DNA of 64,000 nt from Variovorax sp. MHTC-1 (GTDB lineage: Bacteria; Pseudomonadota; Gammaproteobacteria; Burkholderiales; Burkholderiaceae_C). The position numbers and the translations under genes are program-made. The notes under the pieces are model-generated. The model searched no databases. It was not told the DNA's origin and saw only the letters and a list, made by a program, of their open reading frames with translations. Shown here piece by piece: positions 45,140 through 54,412 of this stretch; the stretch's first letter is position 1; the number at the start of each line of letters is the position of its first letter. The stretch is from positions 62,001 through 126,000 of the forward strand of contig NZ_RWKI01000004.1 of the NCBI RefSeq assembly GCF_003984645.1. The letters run 5' to 3'.

Positions 45140-48100
45140 ATGAGCCCTTCACGTCCTTTCATCGAGCGCCCGGTGGCGACCGCGCTGCTGATGGTCGCGA
45201 TCGTGCTCGCCGGCCTGGTGGGTTTCCGCTTCCTGCCGCTGGCGGCACTGCCGCAGGTCGACTACCCGACGATCCAGGTGCAGACGCTCTACCCGGGCGC
45301 CAGCCCCGAGGTGATGAGCCGCACCGTCACCGCGCCGCTGGAGCGCCAGTTCGGCCAGATGGCAGGGCTCGATCGCATGAGCTCCACCAGCTCGGCCGGC
45401 GTGTCCATCGTCACGCTGCAGTTCGCGCTCGACCAGACGCTCGACGTCGCCGAGCAGCAGGTGCAGGCCGCGATCAATGCCGGCGGCTCGCTGCTGCCGG
45501 CCGACCTGCCGGCGCCGCCGGTCTATGCCAAGGTCAACCCGGCCGACGCGCCGATCCTCACGCTGGCCGTGAGCTCCGAGACCATGCCGCTGACCGAGGT
45601 GCAGAACCTCGTGAACACGCGGCTGGCGCAGAAGATCAGCCAGGTCGGCGGGGTCGGCCTGGTCTCGCTCTCGGGCGGGCAGCGGCCCGCGGTGCGCATC
45701 CAGGCCGACACCAACGCGCTGGCCTCGGTCGGCATCGGGCTGGACACGCTGCGCACCGCGATCGCCGCGGCCAATGCCAACAGCGCCAAGGGCAGCTTCG
45801 ACGGCCCGAAGCGTGCCTACACCATCAATGCCAACGACCAGCTGTTGACGGCGGCCGACTACAAGAACCTGATCGTCGCCTGGAAGAACGGGGCACCGGT
45901 GCGCATGACCGATGTCGCGCGCGTGATCGATGGCGCCGAGAACACGCAGCTCGGCGCCTGGGCCGCGCAGCGCGGCGAAGCGAAGGACGACGGCAGTCCT
46001 GCACCGCTCTACCGCGCGATCATCCTCAACGTGCAGCGCCAGCCGGGCGCCAACGTGATCGGCACCGTCGACGCGATCAAGAAGCTCTTGCCCGATCTCG
46101 AGGCCTCGCTGCCCGGTTCGCTCCAGGTCGAGGTGCTGAGCGACCGCACCGCCGGCATCCGCGCCTCGGTGCATCACGTGCAGCTCGAGCTCGCGCTCGC
46201 GGTGGTGCTGGTGGTGCTGGTGATCTTCTTCTTCTTGCACAGCCTGCGCGCGACCGTGATCGCGAGCATCGCGGTGCCGATCTCGCTCATCGGCACGCTG
46301 GGGCTCATGTACCTGCTGGGCTACAGCCTCAACAACCTGAGCCTGATGGCGCTGACCATCGCGACCGGCTTCGTGGTCGACGACGCGATCGTCATGATCG
46401 AGAACATCGCGCGCTATCTCGAAAAGGGCGATCCACCCTTCAAGGCGGCGCTCAAGGGCGCGACGCAGATCGGCTTCACCATCATTTCGCTGACGGTGTC
46501 GCTGGTGGCGGTGCTGATCCCGCTGCTCTTCATGGGCGACGTGGTGGGCCGGCTGTTCCGCGAGTTCGCCGTCACGCTGTCGATCACCATCCTCATCTCG
46601 GCCGTGGTCTCGCTGACGCTGGTGCCGATGATGTCGGCACGCTGGCTCAAGCCGCAGGCCGAGGAGGGCGGGCGCTTCGGCGCGCGGGTGCAGCAGTTCA
46701 TCGATCGCGTGATCGCGCGCTACGACGGCTGGCTCCAGTGGGTGTTGCGCCACCAGCCGCTGACGCTGGTGGTGGCGCTGCTCACGCTGGTGCTCACGGT
46801 GCTGCTCTACATCGCCATTCCCAAGGGCCTGTTTCCCACCCAGGACACCGGGCAGCTGCAGGCCCGCATCGAGGCGGCGCAGGACGTTTCGTTCGTGCGC
46901 ATGGCCGAGCTGCAGCAGGCCGCGGCCAACGCGATCCTCGCCGACCCCGAGGTGCGCAGCATCAGCTCGGTGGTGGGCGTGGATGCAGCCAACAACACGG
47001 CGCTCAATACCGGCCGCATGCTGGTGAACCTGCGCGCCGACCGCGGCAACCAGGAAGAGACCATGCAGCGCCTGCGCGAACGCGTGGGCGCGGTGGCGGG
47101 CGTGACGCTCTACCTGCAGCCGACGCAGGACCTGACCATCGATGCCGAGACCGGTCCGACCGAGTTCCGCGTCTCGCTCGAAGGCGTGGACACCGCGACC
47201 GTGAACGAATGGGCGAGGAAGCTGGTGGAGCGGCTGCGTACCGTGCCGGAAGTGCGCAACCCGACGACCGATGCGGGCGCGCAGGGGATGGCCGCCTACG
47301 TGGACATCGACCGCAATACCGCCTCGCGGCTGTCGGTCACGGCGAGCTCGGTCGACGATGCGCTCTACAGCGCCTTCGGCCAGCGCATCGTCTCGACCAT
47401 CTTCACCGAGACCAACCAATACCGCGTGATCCTCGAGGCCCAGCGCGAGGCGCTGTCCTCGCCGCAGGGCCTGGGCAATCTGCAGCTGCGCACCGGCGCA
47501 GGCACGCCGACGCCTCTGTCCTCGCTGGCAACGGTGCGCGAGCAGCTGGCGCCGCTGGCGGTCACGCGGGTGGCGCAGTACCCGGCCGCCACGGTGGGCT
47601 TCGACACCGCGCCGGGCGTCTCGCTCGGCAGGTCGGTATCGGAGATCCGCGCCGCGGCCAAGGACATCGCGCTGCCCGCGAGCGTGGGCATGACCTTCCT
47701 CGGCGCGGCGGGGGCCTACGAGAAGTCGCTGACCAACCAGCTGTGGCTGATCCTGGCGGCGGTGGTGTGCGTGTACATCGTGCTGGGTGTGCTCTATGAG
47801 AGCTACATCCATCCGCTGACGATCCTGTCGACCTTGCCTTCGGCGGGCGTCGGCGCGCTGCTGGCGCTGATGGTGACGGGCAACGACCTCGGCGTGATCG
47901 GGATCATCGGCATCATTCTTCTGATCGGCATCGTGAAGAAGAACGCGATCATGATGATCGACTTCGCCATCGATGCCGAGCGCCATCAAGGCAAGTCGCC
48001 GCAGGAGGCGATCCACCAGGCGGCCTTGCTGCGCTTCCGGCCCATTCTGATGACGACGCTGGCTGCCTTGTTCGCAGCCTTGCCCTTGATGCTCGGATGG

Positions 48101-48262
48101 GGCGAGGGGGCTGAGCTGCGGCGTCCTCTTGGCTTGGCGATCTTCGGCGGGCTGGTGGTGAGCCAGGTGCTGACGCTGTTCACGACGCCGGTGATCTATC
48201 TGGCTTTCGATCGGATGGGGCGGCGGTTTGGAGGAAAGCGTGAAGCGACGCATTCCGCTTGA
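45140..48262 (+). CDS. mdtB: RND efflux permease subunit MdtB/MuxB
   Basis: A 1040-residue inner membrane RND pump subunit, the same length as E. coli MdtB. Visible are the first helix and RFLPLAALPQVDYPTIQVQTLYPGASPEVM, helix 4 proton-relay pair in ATGFVVDDAIVMIENI, and the conserved DRTAGIRASVHHV and GIIGIILLIGIVKKNAIMMIDFA segments. It works as a heterotrimer with MdtC. The end is directly followed by an 821-bp palindromic repeat rather than mdtC. Confidence 0.94.
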   Translation: MSPSRPFIERPVATALLMVAIVLAGLVGFRFLPLAALPQVDYPTIQVQTLYPGASPEVMSRTVTAPLERQFGQMAGLDRMSSTSSAGVSIVTLQFALDQTLDVAEQQVQAAINAGGSLLPADLPAPPVYAKVNPADAPILTLAVSSETMPLTEVQNLVNTRLAQKISQVGGVGLVSLSGGQRPAVRIQADTNALASVGIGLDTLRTAIAAANANSAKGSFDGPKRAYTINANDQLLTAADYKNLIVAWKNGAPVRMTDVARVIDGAENTQLGAWAAQRGEAKDDGSPAPLYRAIILNVQRQPGANVIGTVDAIKKLLPDLEASLPGSLQVEVLSDRTAGIRASVHHVQLELALAVVLVVLVIFFFLHSLRATVIASIAVPISLIGTLGLMYLLGYSLNNLSLMALTIATGFVVDDAIVMIENIARYLEKGDPPFKAALKGATQIGFTIISLTVSLVAVLIPLLFMGDVVGRLFREFAVTLSITILISAVVSLTLVPMMSARWLKPQAEEGGRFGARVQQFIDRVIARYDGWLQWVLRHQPLTLVVALLTLVLTVLLYIAIPKGLFPTQDTGQLQARIEAAQDVSFVRMAELQQAAANAILADPEVRSISSVVGVDAANNTALNTGRMLVNLRADRGNQEETMQRLRERVGAVAGVTLYLQPTQDLTIDAETGPTEFRVSLEGVDTATVNEWARKLVERLRTVPEVRNPTTDAGAQGMAAYVDIDRNTASRLSVTASSVDDALYSAFGQRIVSTIFTETNQYRVILEAQREALSSPQGLGNLQLRTGAGTPTPLSSLATVREQLAPLAVTRVAQYPAATVGFDTAPGVSLGRSVSEIRAAAKDIALPASVGMTFLGAAGAYEKSLTNQLWLILAAVVCVYIVLGVLYESYIHPLTILSTLPSAGVGALLALMVTGNDLGVIGIIGIILLIGIVKKNAIMMIDFAIDAERHQGKSPQEAIHQAALLRFRPILMTTLAALFAALPLMLGWGEGAELRRPLGLAIFGGLVVSQVLTLFTTPVIYLAFDRMGRRFGGKREATHSA

Positions 48263-48268
48263 ATCCCT

Positions 48269-49089
48269 CTTGCTCCCTCTCCCTCTGGGAGAGGGTGGGG
48301 GTGAGGGCGTTGGGCCTTTGAATCGCTGCTGTTCTTTGCTGAGGCTGGAGCCGGGTCTCGCCCCGGCGGGCGAGTCACTTTCTTTTGCGTCGCCAAAAGA
48401 AAGTAACCAAAGAAAAGGCGACCCCACTGTCTGCGACCCCCTTCGGGGGCAACCTGCGGTGCTCGCGTCGCCGGCCTGCCGCAGAACTCGCTGCGTTCAC
48501 TTCGTTCACTGCGCTCAGACAGCTGCGGCAAGTCAGACCACGATGCACGCCTGTCCTTCGGCAGGCGTGCGGCCGACGCCCCTGCGCTCCTCGGCGCAGC
48601 CAGAGGGGAGTGGCTCGGGCCTTCGCTTCGCTCGGCCGCCAAGAACCCCAACAGCCAACCCCTACACAAGTACGCGCCATGGCGCGTACTTGTTCAATCC
48701 CCTCTGGGCGTGCCGAGGAGCGCAGCTTCAGGCGGAAGAAGGGGCGCGCGTGCGGCCGGCGCCGGGCCGCCCCAAGGCGGCCGAACCTCCCCCTTGGGGG
48801 GTGGCCAATTACACGCAGCGAAGCGAAGTGAAAAGCCGGGGGGCACAGGTGACCCGAAGCGAGTTTGCGCGGACCCCGCCTGAAGCGAGCACCGCAGGTT
48901 GCCCGGAACGAAGTGGAGGGACACGCACAGTGGGGTCGCCTTCTTTTGCTTACTTTTCTTGGCGAGACAAGAAAAGTGAGTCGCCCGCCGGGGCGAACTC
49001 CCGGCTTCGGCTTCAACCCAAGCGCAACGTACGAGTCAAAGGCCGAAACGCCCCCACCCCAACCCTCCCCCAGAGGAAGAGGGAGCAAG
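48269..49089. repeat. Giant palindromic repeat element, copy A
   Basis: A nearly 821-bp imperfect palindrome filling the whole mdtB-mdtC gap. The ends match as inverted repeats (CTTGC at 48269, GCAAG at 49085, with CCCTCT... / ...AGAGGG inside), and the exact middle is a 28-bp perfect palindrome with half-arm ACAAGTACGCGCCA (48666-48679). Smaller hairpins sit in each arm: CTTTCTTTTG/CAAAAGAAAG (48378-48403) and CTTTTCTTG/CAAGAAAAG (48953-48976). No transposase. ORFs in it are artefacts. Copy B lies at 53.8 kb. Confidence 0.85.
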
Positions 49090-49097
49090 GCTAAGGC

Positions 49098-52000
49098 ATG
49101 AACTTCTCCAGACCCTTCGTCGAACGCCCGATCGCCACGGTCCTGCTGACGATCGGCGTCGCGCTGGCCGGCGTCGTCGCCTTTTTCGTGCTGCCGGTCT
49201 CCCCGCTGCCGCAGGTCGATTTCCCCACCATCTCGGTCCAGGCCAGCCTCGCCGGCGCCAGCCCGAGCACGATGGCATCGAGCGTGGCCACGCCGCTGGA
49301 GCGCCGGCTCGGCATCATCCCCGGCGTCAACGAGCTGACCTCGACCAGCTCCAACGGCTCGACGCGCATCACGCTGCAGTTCGACCTGAAGCGCAACATC
49401 GACAGCGCCGCGCGCGAAGTGCAGGCGGCCATCAACGCGGCGCGCGCGGATCTGCCGGCCACGCTGCGCAGCAACCCGACGTATCGCAAGCGCAACCCGA
49501 CGGCGGCGCCGGTCATGATCCTCGCGCTGACATCCAAGACGCGCACGCCGGGGCAGATCTACGAAGCGGTATCGAACATCGTCAGCCAGCGCCTGTCGCA
49601 GGTCGAAGGCGTGGGCGAGGTCGAGATCGGCGGCGGTTCGCTGCCGGCGGTGCGGGTCGAACTCGAGCCCTTCGCGCTCAACCGCATGGGCATCAGCACC
49701 GAGGACGTGCGTGCTGCGATCCAGGCCAACAATGCGAACCGTCCCAAGGGCGCGATCGAGAGCGGCGACCGCCGGCTGCAGGTCTACACGCCCGCTCCGG
49801 GCCGCCGCGCCGCCGACTACCGCGACCTGGTGATCGCCTGGCGCAACGACTCCGCGGTGCGCCTGGGCGATGTGGCGCGCGTGATCGACAGCGTCGAGAA
49901 CACGCGCACGCTGGGCCTGTTCAACGGCGCGCCCGCCGTGGTCGTGCTGCTGACGCAGCAGCCCGGCGCCAACGTCATCGAAACCGTGGACGGCGTGCGC
50001 AAGCTGCTACCCGAATTGCGCGCGCAACTGCCGCAGGACATCGACATCCAGGTCGCCTCCGACCGCACCAACTCGATCCGCGCCTCGCTGCGCGAGATCG
50101 AGTTCACGCTGATGATCTCGATCGTGCTGGTGGTGCTGGTGGTGGGGCTGTTCCTGCGCAAGGCGCGCGCCACCATCGTGCCGGCGGTGGCTACCGTGGT
50201 CTCGCTCTTGGGCACCTTCGGCGTCATGTACCTCCTGGGCTACAGCCTCAACAACCTGAGCCTGATGGCGCTCACCGTGGCCACAGGCTTCGTGGTGGAC
50301 GACGCCATCGTGGTGCTGGAGAACACCACGCGCCACGTCGAGGCCGGCATGAACCGCGTCGAGGCGGCGCTGCGCGGCGCGCGCGAAGTGGGCTTCACGG
50401 TGCTGTCGATCAGCCTCTCGCTGGTGGCGGTGTTCATCCCGTTGCTCTTCATGGGCGACCAGGTCGGCCGGCTGTTCCGCGAGTTCGCGGTCACGCTGTC
50501 GGCGGCGGTGCTGATCTCGCTCGTGATTTCGCTGACCACCACGCCGATGATGTGCGCCATGCTGCTGCGCAGCGAGGCGGAAGAGGCGCCGGCCAAGAAG
50601 CGCGGGCGCGTGCGCGCCTGGCTCGGCAGCCGCGCCGAGCGCGCCTGGCAGTGGACCCTGCGCACCTACGCCCACAGCCTCGATTGGGCGCTGGCGAGCA
50701 AAGGCGTCGTGATGGTGGTGCTGCTGGCGGTGATCGCGCTCAACGTCTATCTCTTCAATGCCATCCCCAAGGGCTACTTCCCGCAGCAGGACAACGGCCA
50801 GCTCAACGCGGGCTTGCGGGCCGACCAGAGCATCTCCTCCGTGGCGGTCGCCGAGAAGCTGCGCCAGGCCGTGGACATCATCCGCAAGGACCCGGCGGTC
50901 GACACGGTGGTGGGCTTCTCCGGCGGCAGCCGCGCCGGCGGCGGCTTCATGTTCGTGAACCTCAAGCCGCTGTCCGAGCGCACCGAGAAGACGGCCGCGG
51001 TGATCGACCGCCTGCGCCCGCAGCTCAACCAGCTCACCGGCCTGCGCGTGTTCCTGTTTCCGGTGCAGGACCTGCGCATGGGCGGGCGCTCCAGCAACTC
51101 CAGTTACCAGTACACGCTCAAGAGCGACAACCTCGGCGACCTGCGCGCCTGGTCGACCAGGCTGGCCGATCGCCTGCGCCAGGAGACCGCGCTGACCGAC
51201 ATCGACAGCGACGATGCCGACAACGGCGTCGAGACCTATGTCGAGGTCGACCGCGATGCCGCGGCCCGGCTCGGCGTGACGTCGAGCGCGGTCGACAGCG
51301 CGCTCTACAACGCTTACGGCCAGCGCTCGGTGGCCACCATCTACGACGAGCTCAACCAGTATTCGGTGATCATGGAATGGGCGCCGCGCTTCCAGCGCGC
51401 GCCGATCGCGCTCAAGGACCTGTACGTGCCCTCGACGCTGAACGCCACCACCACCGCGAATGGGGCGACCAGCATCAGTTCGCTTCAGGCCACCACGGAC
51501 GCGGCGACCGGCACCTCCACCACCACCTCGGCCAACCCGGCGCTGCGCACCGCTTCGACCGGCCAGCAGATCGCGACCAGCGTCACCAACATGGTTCCGC
51601 TCGCGGCCTTCGCCAAGCTCAGCGAGCGGGCGGTGCCGACCTCGATCGACCACCAGGACACCGAGCTCGCGAGCACCGTCTCCTTCAGCCTGGCCGAAGG
51701 CGTGAGCCTGGCACAGGCCAAGCGCATCGTCGCTCAGGCCGAGGCCGACATCGCGATGCCGGTCAATGTGCGCGGCAGCTTCCAGGGCACGGCGCTGGCG
51801 GCGCAGCAGTCGCAGGCGCAGCAGCTGTTCCTGATCGTCGCGGCGCTGGTCGTGATCTATATCGTGCTCGGCGTGCTCTACGAGAGCCTGGTGCACCCGG
51901 TCACGGTGCTGACCACGCTGCCTTCGGCCGGCGTCGGCGCGGTGCTCGCGCTGCTGCTGTTCCGCATGGAGTTCTCGATCATTGCGCTGATCGGCGTGTT

Positions 52001-52355
52001 CCTCTTGATCGGCATCGTGAAGAAGAATGCGATCCTGATCATCGACTTCGCGCTCGAGGCCGAGCGCGCGCGCGGCCTGAGCGCGATGGAGGCGGTGCGC
52101 GAGGCCTGCCTGCTGCGCTTCCGCCCGATCCTGATGACCACGCTGGCGGCCGCACTCGGCGCGCTGCCGCTCGCGATCGGCTTCGGACAGGGCGCGGAGC
52201 TGCGCCAGCCGCTGGGCGTCGCGATCATCGGCGGCTTGATCGCGAGCCAGCTGCTGACGCTCCTGACCACGCCGGTCGTCTACGTGCTGCTCGACAAGCT
52301 GCGCCGGCGCCCGGCCAACGAAAAATACCTGAGCCGTGCCGCGAGCTCGACATGA
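49098..52355 (+). CDS. mdtC: RND efflux permease subunit MdtC/MuxC
   Basis: A 1085-residue RND permease, longer than E. coli MdtC (1025). The extra length is mostly a Thr/Ala/Ser-rich insertion at about residues 775-830 (STLNATTTANGATSISSLQ...TSTTTSANPALRTAST). Core signatures match: FFVLPVSPLPQVDFPTISVQASLAGASP, ATGFVVDDAIVVLENT and GVFLLIGIVKKNAILIIDFALEAE. It pairs with MdtB in a heterotrimer. Translation starts 8 bases after repeat A ends. The outer membrane factor gene follows after 7 bases. Confidence 0.93.
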   Translation: MNFSRPFVERPIATVLLTIGVALAGVVAFFVLPVSPLPQVDFPTISVQASLAGASPSTMASSVATPLERRLGIIPGVNELTSTSSNGSTRITLQFDLKRNIDSAAREVQAAINAARADLPATLRSNPTYRKRNPTAAPVMILALTSKTRTPGQIYEAVSNIVSQRLSQVEGVGEVEIGGGSLPAVRVELEPFALNRMGISTEDVRAAIQANNANRPKGAIESGDRRLQVYTPAPGRRAADYRDLVIAWRNDSAVRLGDVARVIDSVENTRTLGLFNGAPAVVVLLTQQPGANVIETVDGVRKLLPELRAQLPQDIDIQVASDRTNSIRASLREIEFTLMISIVLVVLVVGLFLRKARATIVPAVATVVSLLGTFGVMYLLGYSLNNLSLMALTVATGFVVDDAIVVLENTTRHVEAGMNRVEAALRGAREVGFTVLSISLSLVAVFIPLLFMGDQVGRLFREFAVTLSAAVLISLVISLTTTPMMCAMLLRSEAEEAPAKKRGRVRAWLGSRAERAWQWTLRTYAHSLDWALASKGVVMVVLLAVIALNVYLFNAIPKGYFPQQDNGQLNAGLRADQSISSVAVAEKLRQAVDIIRKDPAVDTVVGFSGGSRAGGGFMFVNLKPLSERTEKTAAVIDRLRPQLNQLTGLRVFLFPVQDLRMGGRSSNSSYQYTLKSDNLGDLRAWSTRLADRLRQETALTDIDSDDADNGVETYVEVDRDAAARLGVTSSAVDSALYNAYGQRSVATIYDELNQYSVIMEWAPRFQRAPIALKDLYVPSTLNATTTANGATSISSLQATTDAATGTSTTTSANPALRTASTGQQIATSVTNMVPLAAFAKLSERAVPTSIDHQDTELASTVSFSLAEGVSLAQAKRIVAQAEADIAMPVNVRGSFQGTALAAQQSQAQQLFLIVAALVVIYIVLGVLYESLVHPVTVLTTLPSAGVGAVLALLLFRMEFSIIALIGVFLLIGIVKKNAILIIDFALEAERARGLSAMEAVREACLLRFRPILMTTLAAALGALPLAIGFGQGAELRQPLGVAIIGGLIASQLLTLLTTPVVYVLLDKLRRRPANEKYLSRAASST

Positions 52356-52362
52356 AGACCCG

Positions 52363-53775
52363 ATGACGACGAACAGAAGAACCCACCTGGCCCTGGCGCT
52401 TGCGGCCTTGCTCGCGGGCTGCGCCGTCGGCCCGCGCTACGAGCAGCCCTCCACCGCCGTGCCCGCCACGTGGAAGGAAGCGGCCGCCGCCGAAGGCTGG
52501 CTGCCTGCCGCGCCGGCCGATGCGCTGGACCGCGGCGAGTGGTGGAAGCTGTTCGGCGACCCGGCGCTCGACGAGCTTGCGGCGCGCGTGCAGGTGTCGA
52601 ACCAGAACATCGCTGTCGCCGTGGCCAACTACGCGCAGGCCCAGGCGCTGGTACGCGAGCAGCGCGCGGCCCTGTTCCCGACCGTCACGGCCGACGGCGG
52701 CGCCCGGCGTTCCGGCGCGCGCAATACCTCGCCTTCCACCACGGCCAGCGCTTCGCTGCAGGCCGACTGGGCGCCGGACGTGTGGGGCCGGCTGCGTCAG
52801 GCAGTCGGCGGTGCGCAGGCCAGCGCGCAGGTCAGCGAGGCCGATCTGGCCTCGGCGCGCCTCTCGGCCGTGGGCGAGCTCGCGACCAACTACTTCGCGC
52901 TGCGCGAAGCCGATGCCGAGCTGCAGCTGCTGGCCGTCACGCTCCAGGGCTACGAACGCAGCCTGGAGATCGCGCGCAACCGCTACAACGCCGGCATCGC
53001 GGCCCAGACCGACGTGCTGCAGGCGCAGACGCTCTACGTCAACACCCAGGCCGAGCGTGTCGCGCTGCAGCGCACCCGCGACACGCTGGAACATGCGATC
53101 GCGGTGCTGGTCGGCGCCGCGCCGGCCGAGTTCGTCCTGAGGCCTGCCGACTGGAAGCCAATCGTGCCCGGCATCCCCGCCGGCGTGCCCTCGACCCTGC
53201 TGCAGCGCCGGCCCGACATCGCCGCAGCGGAGCGCGCGGTGGCCGTCGCCAATGCGCAGATCGGCATCGCGCGCTCGGCCTACTTTCCGAGCCTGACCCT
53301 GAATGCCGCGCTCAGCAGCAGCGCGAGCCGGGTCGGCGACCTGTTCAATGCCTCGAACATGCTCTGGTCGCTGGGCCTGTCGGTCGCGCAGACAGTGTTC
53401 GATGCCGGCGCCATCGGCGCGCGCGTCGATGCGGCCAAGGCCTCGCACGAGGCGGCGGTGGCGAGCTACCGCCAGACCGTGCTCGCTGCCTTCCAGAACG
53501 TCGAAGACCAACTCACTGCAGGCGCCAGCCTCGCGCAGCAGGAGGACCTGCGCCGCGAGGCCTCGGCCGCGGCGGACCTCACCGAGCAGCAGTTCCTCAA
53601 CCGTTACCGTCAGGGCCAGGTGAGCTACACCGACGTGGTGACGGCGCAGGTCTCGGCGCTTAACGCGCGGCGCACGCTGCTGCAACTGCAGGTCAATCGG
53701 CAGGGCGCGGCGGTGGCGTTGATTCAGGCGTTGGGGGGCGGGTGGCAGGCGGGGTGGGGCTCGTCGTCCTCCTGA
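52363..53775 (+). CDS. Outer membrane efflux lipoprotein (OprM/NodT family)
   Basis: A 470-residue TolC-like channel protein. The signal peptide ends in a lipobox LLAGCAVGPRYEQP, so the mature protein is lipid-anchored in the outer membrane, as in OprM/OpmB/NodT. The two coiled-coil repeat halves contain ANYAQAQALVREQRAALFPTV and VAVANAQIGIARSAYFPSLTL. ATG 52363 is chosen as it starts the signal peptide. Final gene of the mdtABC operon, completing a tripartite pump. It ends just before repeat B. Confidence 0.93.
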   Translation: MTTNRRTHLALALAALLAGCAVGPRYEQPSTAVPATWKEAAAAEGWLPAAPADALDRGEWWKLFGDPALDELAARVQVSNQNIAVAVANYAQAQALVREQRAALFPTVTADGGARRSGARNTSPSTTASASLQADWAPDVWGRLRQAVGGAQASAQVSEADLASARLSAVGELATNYFALREADAELQLLAVTLQGYERSLEIARNRYNAGIAAQTDVLQAQTLYVNTQAERVALQRTRDTLEHAIAVLVGAAPAEFVLRPADWKPIVPGIPAGVPSTLLQRRPDIAAAERAVAVANAQIGIARSAYFPSLTLNAALSSSASRVGDLFNASNMLWSLGLSVAQTVFDAGAIGARVDAAKASHEAAVASYRQTVLAAFQNVEDQLTAGASLAQQEDLRREASAAADLTEQQFLNRYRQGQVSYTDVVTAQVSALNARRTLLQLQVNRQGAAVALIQALGGGWQAGWGSSSS

Positions 53776-53776
53776 T

Positions 53777-54402
53777 CTATACGTTGTGCTTGAGTTGAGG
53801 CCTGGAGCCGGGAATTCGCCCCGGCGGGCGACTCACTTTCTTTTGCTTCGCCAAAAGAAAGTAAGCAAAGAAAAGGCGACCCCACTGTCTGCGACCCTCC
53901 ACTTCGTTCCGGGCAACCTGCGGTGCTCGCTTTTCGCGGGGTCTCGCTCGAACTCGCCTTCGGCTCAGACAATCGCGAGCCCTGATCCGCGAAAAGCTGC
54001 GCTCCTCGGCGCAGCCAGAGGGGAGTGGGTCGGGCCTTCGCTTTGCTCGGCCGCCAAGAACCCCAACAGCCCAAACCCAAAACACAAGGACGCGCCATGG
54101 CGCGTCCTTGTTCAATCCCTCTGGGCGTGCCGAGGAGCACAGCTTCAGGCGGATAAAGGGCCGCGCGTGTTTGAGCGCAGCGAGTTTGCGCGGACCCCGC
54201 CTGAAGCGAGCACCGGAGGTTGCCCGGAACGAAGTGGAGGGACACGCACGGTGGGGTCGCCTTTCTTTGCCTACTTTCTTTGGCGAGACAAAGAAAGTAG
54301 GTCGCCCGCCGGGGCGAACTCCCGGCTCCGGCCTCAAAAACAAGCGCAACGTACAAATCGTCGGCCGGTGTGCCCACCCCAACCCTCCCCCGGAGGGGGG
54401 GA
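53777..54402. repeat. Giant palindromic repeat element, copy B
   Basis: A relative of copy A, about 620 bp, between the outer membrane factor gene and the rpiR-like gene. Its centre is a 28-bp perfect palindrome with half-arm ACAAGGACGCGCCA (54084-54097): where copy A has T-A, copy B has G-C, a compensatory pair change. Arm hairpins are CTTTCTTTTG/CAAAAGAAAG (53836-53861) and CTTTCTTTG/CAAAGAAAG (54274-54297), the latter changed compensatorily against copy A. The left end is truncated relative to A. No ORF here is credible. Confidence 0.85.
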
Positions 54403-54412
54403 GTAAGACAAG

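Follow-up and report, generated by a model that had tools for sequence, protein, structure and literature searches.

The long palindrome between the mdtB- and mdtC-type permease genes of this Variovorax genome is a multicopy composite of REP-like outer repeats, a unit of ~216 nt (the arm) present as an inverted pair, and a core. On balance, we consider it to be a non-autonomous dispersed palindromic element that spreads within a genome as whole elements and recurs at few junctions, mainly mdtB-mdtC. As far as a comparison of sequences can establish them, its structure, its multiple copies, two empty sites, its nesting, its occurrence at one junction in five genera and the compensation within its arms are demonstrated below. 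We propose that the working part would be the inverted pair of arms, and that it may be moved by an enzyme acting in trans on folded single strands.

Long palindromes are usually unstable in bacteria. As an 18-nt arm motif is present in 22-33 copies in each of three Variovorax genomes, and as many genera carry the element, it must persist or return in spite of this instability.

Architecture of the element

Within the window (the whole 64,000-nt stretch of DNA that was analysed), the sequence-only reading had described a giant palindromic repeat between mdtB and mdtC. The inverted symmetry is real. Its ends, 48269 and 49089, are exact, their midpoint (48679) is the axis of the perfect 28-bp core (48666-48693), and the matching inverted blocks reach both ends (48269-48311 and 49047-49089, 91% complementary). 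The self-alignment that had been suggested as a check, of the element with its own reverse complement, gave 554 identities in 850 positions (65%; 58 gaps; E 2e-49). The two halves of the core (48666-48679 and 48680-48693) are 100% complementary and leave no loop. Symmetry is imperfect in the inner half of the palindrome, where the variable-stem modules differ between the two arms. Besides these unlike modules, the inner asymmetry stems from an extra repeat of ~93 bp in the right arm (48752-48845). This GC-rich repeat, which is unrelated to the element and intruded into the right arm of the window copy, has, by manual count, at least 26 other matches in the genome. Four of its matches are clustered at C1 (C1:682326-682670, L079).

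From the outside inwards, the element begins with layer A, which is a REP-like hairpin carrying a G-rich tag; modules B to F follow, and the core comes last (Table 1). Modules B to F form the arm, which has hairpins of its own. In module B a T-rich tract follows a GC hairpin, module C is the hairpin ACTTTCTTTTG..CAAAAGAAAGT, and module E consists of a variable stem that surrounds the conserved region AACTCG..CTCA. Terminal inverted repeats, one of the criteria for a MITE, are present.

Table 1. Positions, strands and supporting evidence of the features in the window
Feature	Position	Strand	Evidence or remark
mdtB/muxB-type RND permease gene, upstream	45140..48262	+	
Whole composite palindromic element	48269..49089	.	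symmetry, copies, folding
Layer A left, REP-like hairpin CCCTCTCCC..GGGAGAGGG, tag TGGGGGTGAGGGC	48269..48311	+	
Left arm of the long-stem type, modules B to F running inwards	48349..48608	+	arm profile (L060 590-849)
Module B hairpin and T-rich tract, left arm, terminator-like, inward	48357..48374	+	
Perfect 28-bp core palindrome on the axis	48666..48693	.	
Right arm, inner part: rest of E, F	48699..48751	-	arm profile (L060 940-992)
Separate ~93-bp dispersed repeat inside the right arm	48752..48845	.	>=26 other genome matches
Right arm, outer part: B, C, D, part of E	48855..49005	-	arm profile (L060 1096-1246)
Module B hairpin, right arm, terminator-like, inward	48981..48996	-	
Layer A right, inverted copy	49047..49089	-	
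mdtC-type RND permease gene, downstream	49098..52355	+	starts 8 bp after the element
Second element copy, after the outer-membrane efflux gene	53780..54408	.	
Second copy, left arm	53806..54023	+	
Second copy, core	54084..54111		
Second copy, right arm	54117..54327	-	

Three long reading frames that run through the palindrome had no Pfam match at an E value of 1, and on this ground we dropped the reading of the element as coding sequence. Rfam gave no match above the gathering threshold in the 64-kb window; for 48200-49150, with E values up to 1, the sole match was mir-593 (E 0.42).

Copies and dispersal within the genome

A search of the whole genome with the element gave at least 103 matches. 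Copy numbers are lower bounds because the best 40 of 211 candidates were scored. Read by eye, at least 11 copies are long, at about 630-860 bp (L060-L070), and about six short ones (L072-L077) are among the matches listed. At L071 (C61:367808-368216) there are inner parts only, a long-type module E standing in other surroundings without layers A to C. The earlier reading overlooked both the multicopy nature of the element and the second copy in the window (53780-54408), which is one of the long copies.

That reading had called for a BLASTN-type count of copies and for a search for empty sites; the first yielded the 11 or more long copies, and the second, in which two sites were tried in three relatives, showed that each lacks the element in a relative. 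The L063 site, between LivG- and LivF-like ABC genes, holds a copy of ~840 bp in this genome. In relative G013 the two genes overlap by 4 nt with no insert, and in G003 and G068 the site holds other, differing palindromic repeats. The L061 site is bare in G068 and occupied in G013. Of the differing repeats that two relatives have at this LivG-LivF-like junction (L329, L330), one has D-E-F-like modules and no B or C.

For all 20 arms of 10 two-arm elements, the closest arm in the genome sits in another element (91-99% identical; 20 other arms compared). Since the best genome match of an arm is never its own partner (0/20), it is whole elements that appear to disperse. Elements that combine the same two unlike arm types, left and right, are also found at unrelated sites of the genome. 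The window copy is absent from these 10 pairs, its right arm being split. We also considered homogenisation of the two arms within an element and rejected it: identity was 0.784 within elements and 0.732 between them, which 1073 of 5000 permutations matched.

No target duplication was detected at the ends of layer A, where shared junction words were no longer than those of shuffled partners (P 0.61). This test covers layer-A-ended copies only; 15 loci were tried, of which 14 had both ends, and three further loci were left out. Short copies match long ones joined at 6-bp direct repeats (L072-L074 and L118; manual reading). The short versions probably arose by deletion between these repeats; the repeats could instead be target duplications, made when an arm pair entered a small palindrome.

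Arrangement of arms and nesting of palindromes

In a scan of named genomes (80 loci), neighbouring arms within 3 kb of each other faced inward in 40 cases, inside-out in six and in tandem in five. All six inside-out pairs were from Pseudorhodoferax. Isolated arms accounted for 6 of the 46 full arms that lay well inside a locus. As pairs can also be inside-out or tandem, and as arms also stand singly, the unit is the arm, which most often occurs as an inward pair.

A 22-mer of layer A, with up to three mismatches, had 62 matches in the genome (control, 1), many of them as inverted pairs. Layer A usually encloses the arm pair in this genome; thus, the palindromes are nested. On the main contig of G014, a REP-like pair lies at the centre of 13 of 14 complete arm pairs, 1.5 to 36 bp off axis, a count that leaves out three unpaired motif matches on that contig. 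A further arm pair with a REP-like pair inside, on a second contig of G014, stands outside this count. Because the REP-like pair is nearly identical in all G014 copies, they would represent few independent nesting events. In G308 and G338 the arm pair is enclosed by other palindromic repeats (L163, L169).

Four wide arm pairs have 0.8-2.3 kb inside (L157, 719-2536; L323, 694-3432; L250, 734-2513; L263, 6001-7234). An autonomous parent with a gene between its arms was sought by eye among the retrieved loci and judged unlikely: these four pairs hold different ordinary-looking frames and share no gene. On manual reading, the interior of L157 resembles integron cassettes.

The mdtB-mdtC junction

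The best models for the flanking genes are MdtB/MuxB (1475 bits) and MdtC (1337 bits), both under the NCBIfam curated cut-offs. The MdtC model matches 49098-52355 in two stretches, with an extra Ser/Thr/Ala-rich segment after about residue 780. The element splits a tight efflux operon, as the sequence-only reading had said; in relatives mdtB and mdtC can overlap by 4 nt. Among 45 mdtB-mdtC junctions of the genus, 19 are such overlaps, six have spacers of 9-58 bp, five have short inserts of 81-202 bp that are palindromic by eye, and 15 have inserts of 367-835 bp. Instead of an unrelated gap of constant length, which had been named as the observation that would speak against the element, the gaps vary from -4 to 835 bp. 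The range alone is usable, the fractions being biased because 18 of the 45 junctions were chosen with gap sizes already readable; three of the 27 chosen by MdtC similarity alone are long. In this set L125 contains N and L126 has one arm; L086, L091, L108, L113 and L116 have no complete junction. A relative with a 96% identical MdtC has a gap of just 49 bp. The layer order at this junction varies by lineage, with A outside, inside or absent.

The palindrome probably breaks assemblies, as contigs of two relatives (L113, L116) stop within the copy at mdtB-mdtC. The element may account for some contig breaks as well as for spurious long reading frames.

A location-blind scan of named genomes with an exact 19-nt arm motif gave at least 119 stretches. 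The genera named in the titles, among the matches listed, are ones we take to be all Comamonadaceae. Nine of the 119 matches listed adjoin mdtB, seven of these with mdtC opposite, and among the matches listed these mdtB-side stretches are from Acidovorax, Polaromonas, Variovorax, Xylophilus and Xenophilus. For the 18 arms at mdtB-mdtC (L294 being counted there by indirect assignment), the nearest neighbour was at another site of the same genus in 15 cases, at the same site in two, and at another site of another genus in one. Over all sites, 162 of 174 arms had their nearest neighbour in the same genus. As the arms at mdtB-mdtC resemble those at other sites of the same genus, the presence of the element there in five genera suggests repeated arrival; clustering by genus can also stem from gene conversion among the copies. 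The occupation of the same transporter junctions by the element across genera offers a natural experiment on how repeats reshape operons.

Other junctions and wider distribution

A UrtD-like C-terminus flanks the element in stretches of Rhodoferax, Polaromonas, Acidovorax and Paracidovorax, in G329 and in this genome. UrtE is on the far side in four of seven UrtD-flanked loci, family models having been run on L070 and L220 only. Six of nine arms at urtD-urtE are closest to other sites of the same genus. Both mdtB-mdtC and urtD-urtE are junctions of adjacent paralogues: MdtB and MdtC are 46% identical over about 770 residues, and the urtD-urtE pair encodes two ABC ATPases. A rough gene call found divergent gene pairs at 3 of 61 element sites. 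Only the low divergent number is usable: several 'gene starts' reach the edge of the element, and of 78 pairs 17 were either undetermined or too short.

With a 167-bp query from the right arm, 57 of the 150 family genomes searched gave matches, representing 51 of 141 genera. Across the order, 4 of 150 genomes matched an 18-nt motif when one mismatch was allowed; this motif is too strict because it missed the family members G109 and G153, which match the longer query. Restriction to one family was overturned by the arm profile, which detects arms of full or nearly full length in loci of three further families (G038; G172; G085 and G132), and part-arms in another two families of the order (G028, G031). 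These arms and part-arms outside the family are at loci L053, L131-L138, L054 and L057; the G085 and G132 loci with two arms are inside-out. By profile match, then, the arm is widespread in the order. The CTTTCTTTTGC..CAAAAGAAAG phrase, which the sequence-only reading had called common in betaproteobacterial genomes, turns out to be one hairpin of the arm, and it is indeed widespread, in the 57 family genomes and in loci of five other families.

Phage records had no match to the element, viral contigs had none to the exact 19-nt arm motif, and 3 of 72,556 plasmid records matched, one of them a 2.5-Mb Variovorax replicon. Spread by phage or plasmid was dropped on these counts.

Folding of the element and of its arms

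It had been predicted that a single strand of the element could form one very long hairpin with side hairpins. As DNA, the strand folds at -301.6 kcal/mol, versus -183.6 +/- 5.4 kcal/mol for 20 shuffles (z -22), and the RNA check gave z -29.7 (20 shuffles). What is conserved is not this one very long hairpin but the fold of each arm by itself: stems within arms co-vary, and the two arms of one element often differ.

From 132 matches of the arm profile in a chosen set of loci we obtained 94 distinct full-length arms without N. With 79 of them in the folding alignment (15 long-stem arms were left out), RNAalifold predicted 31 pairs, of which 14 had changed on both sides. When stem E was tested without an alignment, the 88 arms that could be parsed (six of the 94 were unparsed) had 36 different stems, and in 61 of the 88 the stem was perfect over nine pairs. 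On average 8.51 of nine pairs formed, versus 5.90 after the 3' halves had been dealt anew; the highest of 300 shuffles reached 6.33. The 792 pairs of stem E include one T-G, 10 A-C or C-A and 32 other mismatches. Stem C (one of 94 arms unparsed) forms 11.1 of 12 pairs versus 9.0 when shuffled, and its 1116 pairs include four T-G and 59 C-A. Sequence variants of hairpins B, C and E keep their pairing.

An RNA fold selected on the arm strand would not usually lack G-T pairs almost entirely, as stem E does. This near absence fits folding of the DNA strand and repair of the hairpin by template switching alike, and the latter would require neither selection nor function. Variable stems that are nearly free of G-T pairs make folding at the DNA level testable.

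Alternative explanations

The element could be an old resident with a regulatory function, which entered mdtB-mdtC, urtD-urtE and other junctions ancestrally and whose copies are gene-converted. Occupation of the same junctions in several genera, the same-genus nearest neighbours of 162 of 174 arms and the rarity of divergent gene pairs in the rough gene call (3/61 sites) would agree with this. We regard it as unlikely, however, because 19 of the 45 mdtB-mdtC junctions of one genus are 4-nt overlaps, the relative with the 96% identical MdtC has a 49-bp gap only, the layer order at the same site differs among lineages, and the LivG-LivF-type site has no repeat in G013 but different ones in G003 and in G068. 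Growth in place by inverted duplication and template switching, with no mobility, might produce near-perfect hairpin stems and short versions joined at 6-bp direct repeats. Yet it is contradicted for the long copies of this genome, in which none of 20 arms is closest to its own partner and like arm types recur together at unrelated sites, and we give it very little credence.

Two further explanations concern the mover and the fold. The element may be a large BIME or REPIN that depends on a RAYT (Y1_Tnp) enzyme for its movement. In favour, the REP-like layer A also forms short inverted pairs elsewhere in the genome, its ends lack a target duplication, and the genome has one Y1_Tnp gene. Still, no arm was found in the 4.8 kb around that gene or in 30 Y1_Tnp loci with up to 1.5 kb on each side. 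Y1_Tnp is present in 47 of 57 arm-positive and 65 of 93 arm-negative genomes (Fisher p 0.12, assuming that the arm and Y1_Tnp surveys drew the same 150 genomes), and ten arm-positive genomes have no Y1_Tnp match. As Y1_Tnp is neither significantly associated with arms nor near them, a RAYT-driven REPIN is not supported, and we think it improbable. Selection for an RNA fold, in a structured RNA or a bidirectional terminator, would explain why hairpins B, C and E vary but keep pairing, and why a terminator-like hairpin with a T-rich tract lies at both ends. It would not explain why G-U is not favoured on the arm strand (one G-T in 792 pairs of stem E, four T-G in 1116 of stem C), although the 59 C-A pairs of stem C would be G-U on the opposite strand. 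An Rfam match is also absent, pairs occur in both polarities and arms also stand singly. Thus, an RNA function seems hardly probable to us, and we return to a dispersed palindromic element as the preferred explanation.

Relation to known repeat families

The earlier reading knew of no named family for the element, and none was found in Rfam or in the literature searched, with most subscription journals outside the reach of that search. Neither a published description, in the literature searched, nor a cognate transposase was found. According to the available text of PMC3116915 and PMC2817692, REPINs and BIMEs are likewise intergenic, dispersed, non-coding and built of inverted pairs of palindromic units, but their units are of 20-40 nt, whereas the unit here is a multi-hairpin of ~216 nt. 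Layer A alone resembles them; the ~216-nt arm is not a short REP, the long copies reach about 630-860 bp, and a link to RAYT was not found. Palindromic repeats within palindromes are a trait shared with GTAG/CGTC-tagged REP dimers, which sit inside palindromic targets in A. variabilis, T. roseum and H. neapolitanus (PMC3733652, available part). The dimers described there are small and lie in target palindromes, whereas in the present element layers from different families take turns, with the giant unit serving as host as well as guest. The Beta-proteobacterial repeat element (BRE) occurs in Betaproteobacteria including Comamonadaceae and is usually intergenic (PMC3110155). It is about 90 bp long and sometimes tandem, and the available text of that source describes no giant palindrome. 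Compared by description only, BRE could equal one module of the element.

ERIC and Correia-type MITEs are non-autonomous palindromic repeats near genes and are shorter than the element. Correia-type MITEs have target duplications, whereas none was found here at layer-A ends.

We place the element among the dispersed palindromic repeats; a new mobile class is possible. Such a class of mobile DNA would consist of an inverted pair of the ~216-nt unit that lands at the hairpin tips of other palindromes and at certain stop/start overlaps of operons, nests, and repeatedly uncouples the MdtBC permease genes, a proposal that we hold to be doubtful.

Possible effects on mdtC expression

No sigma-70-like promoter was seen in 48150-49200. 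The same interval has three terminator-like hairpins, two in the element and one inside mdtC (shuffles, mean 1.1, sd 1.0), and the matches in the element are weak. Because mdtC starts a further 8 bp past the element, the stop/start overlap of the relatives is gone. We propose that the element, by breaking this overlap, may weaken or uncouple the expression of mdtC, and that this would come about through the terminator-like hairpins, which point inward, and through a highly stable structure of the mRNA. In E. coli the MdtBC subunits have a ratio of 2:1. The element is perhaps tolerated at mdtB-mdtC because the pump needs unequal amounts of its subunits.

In the window, mdtC and the outer-membrane efflux gene are bracketed by two copies of the element (45140-54408), and in relative G003 palindromes are present at both of these places.
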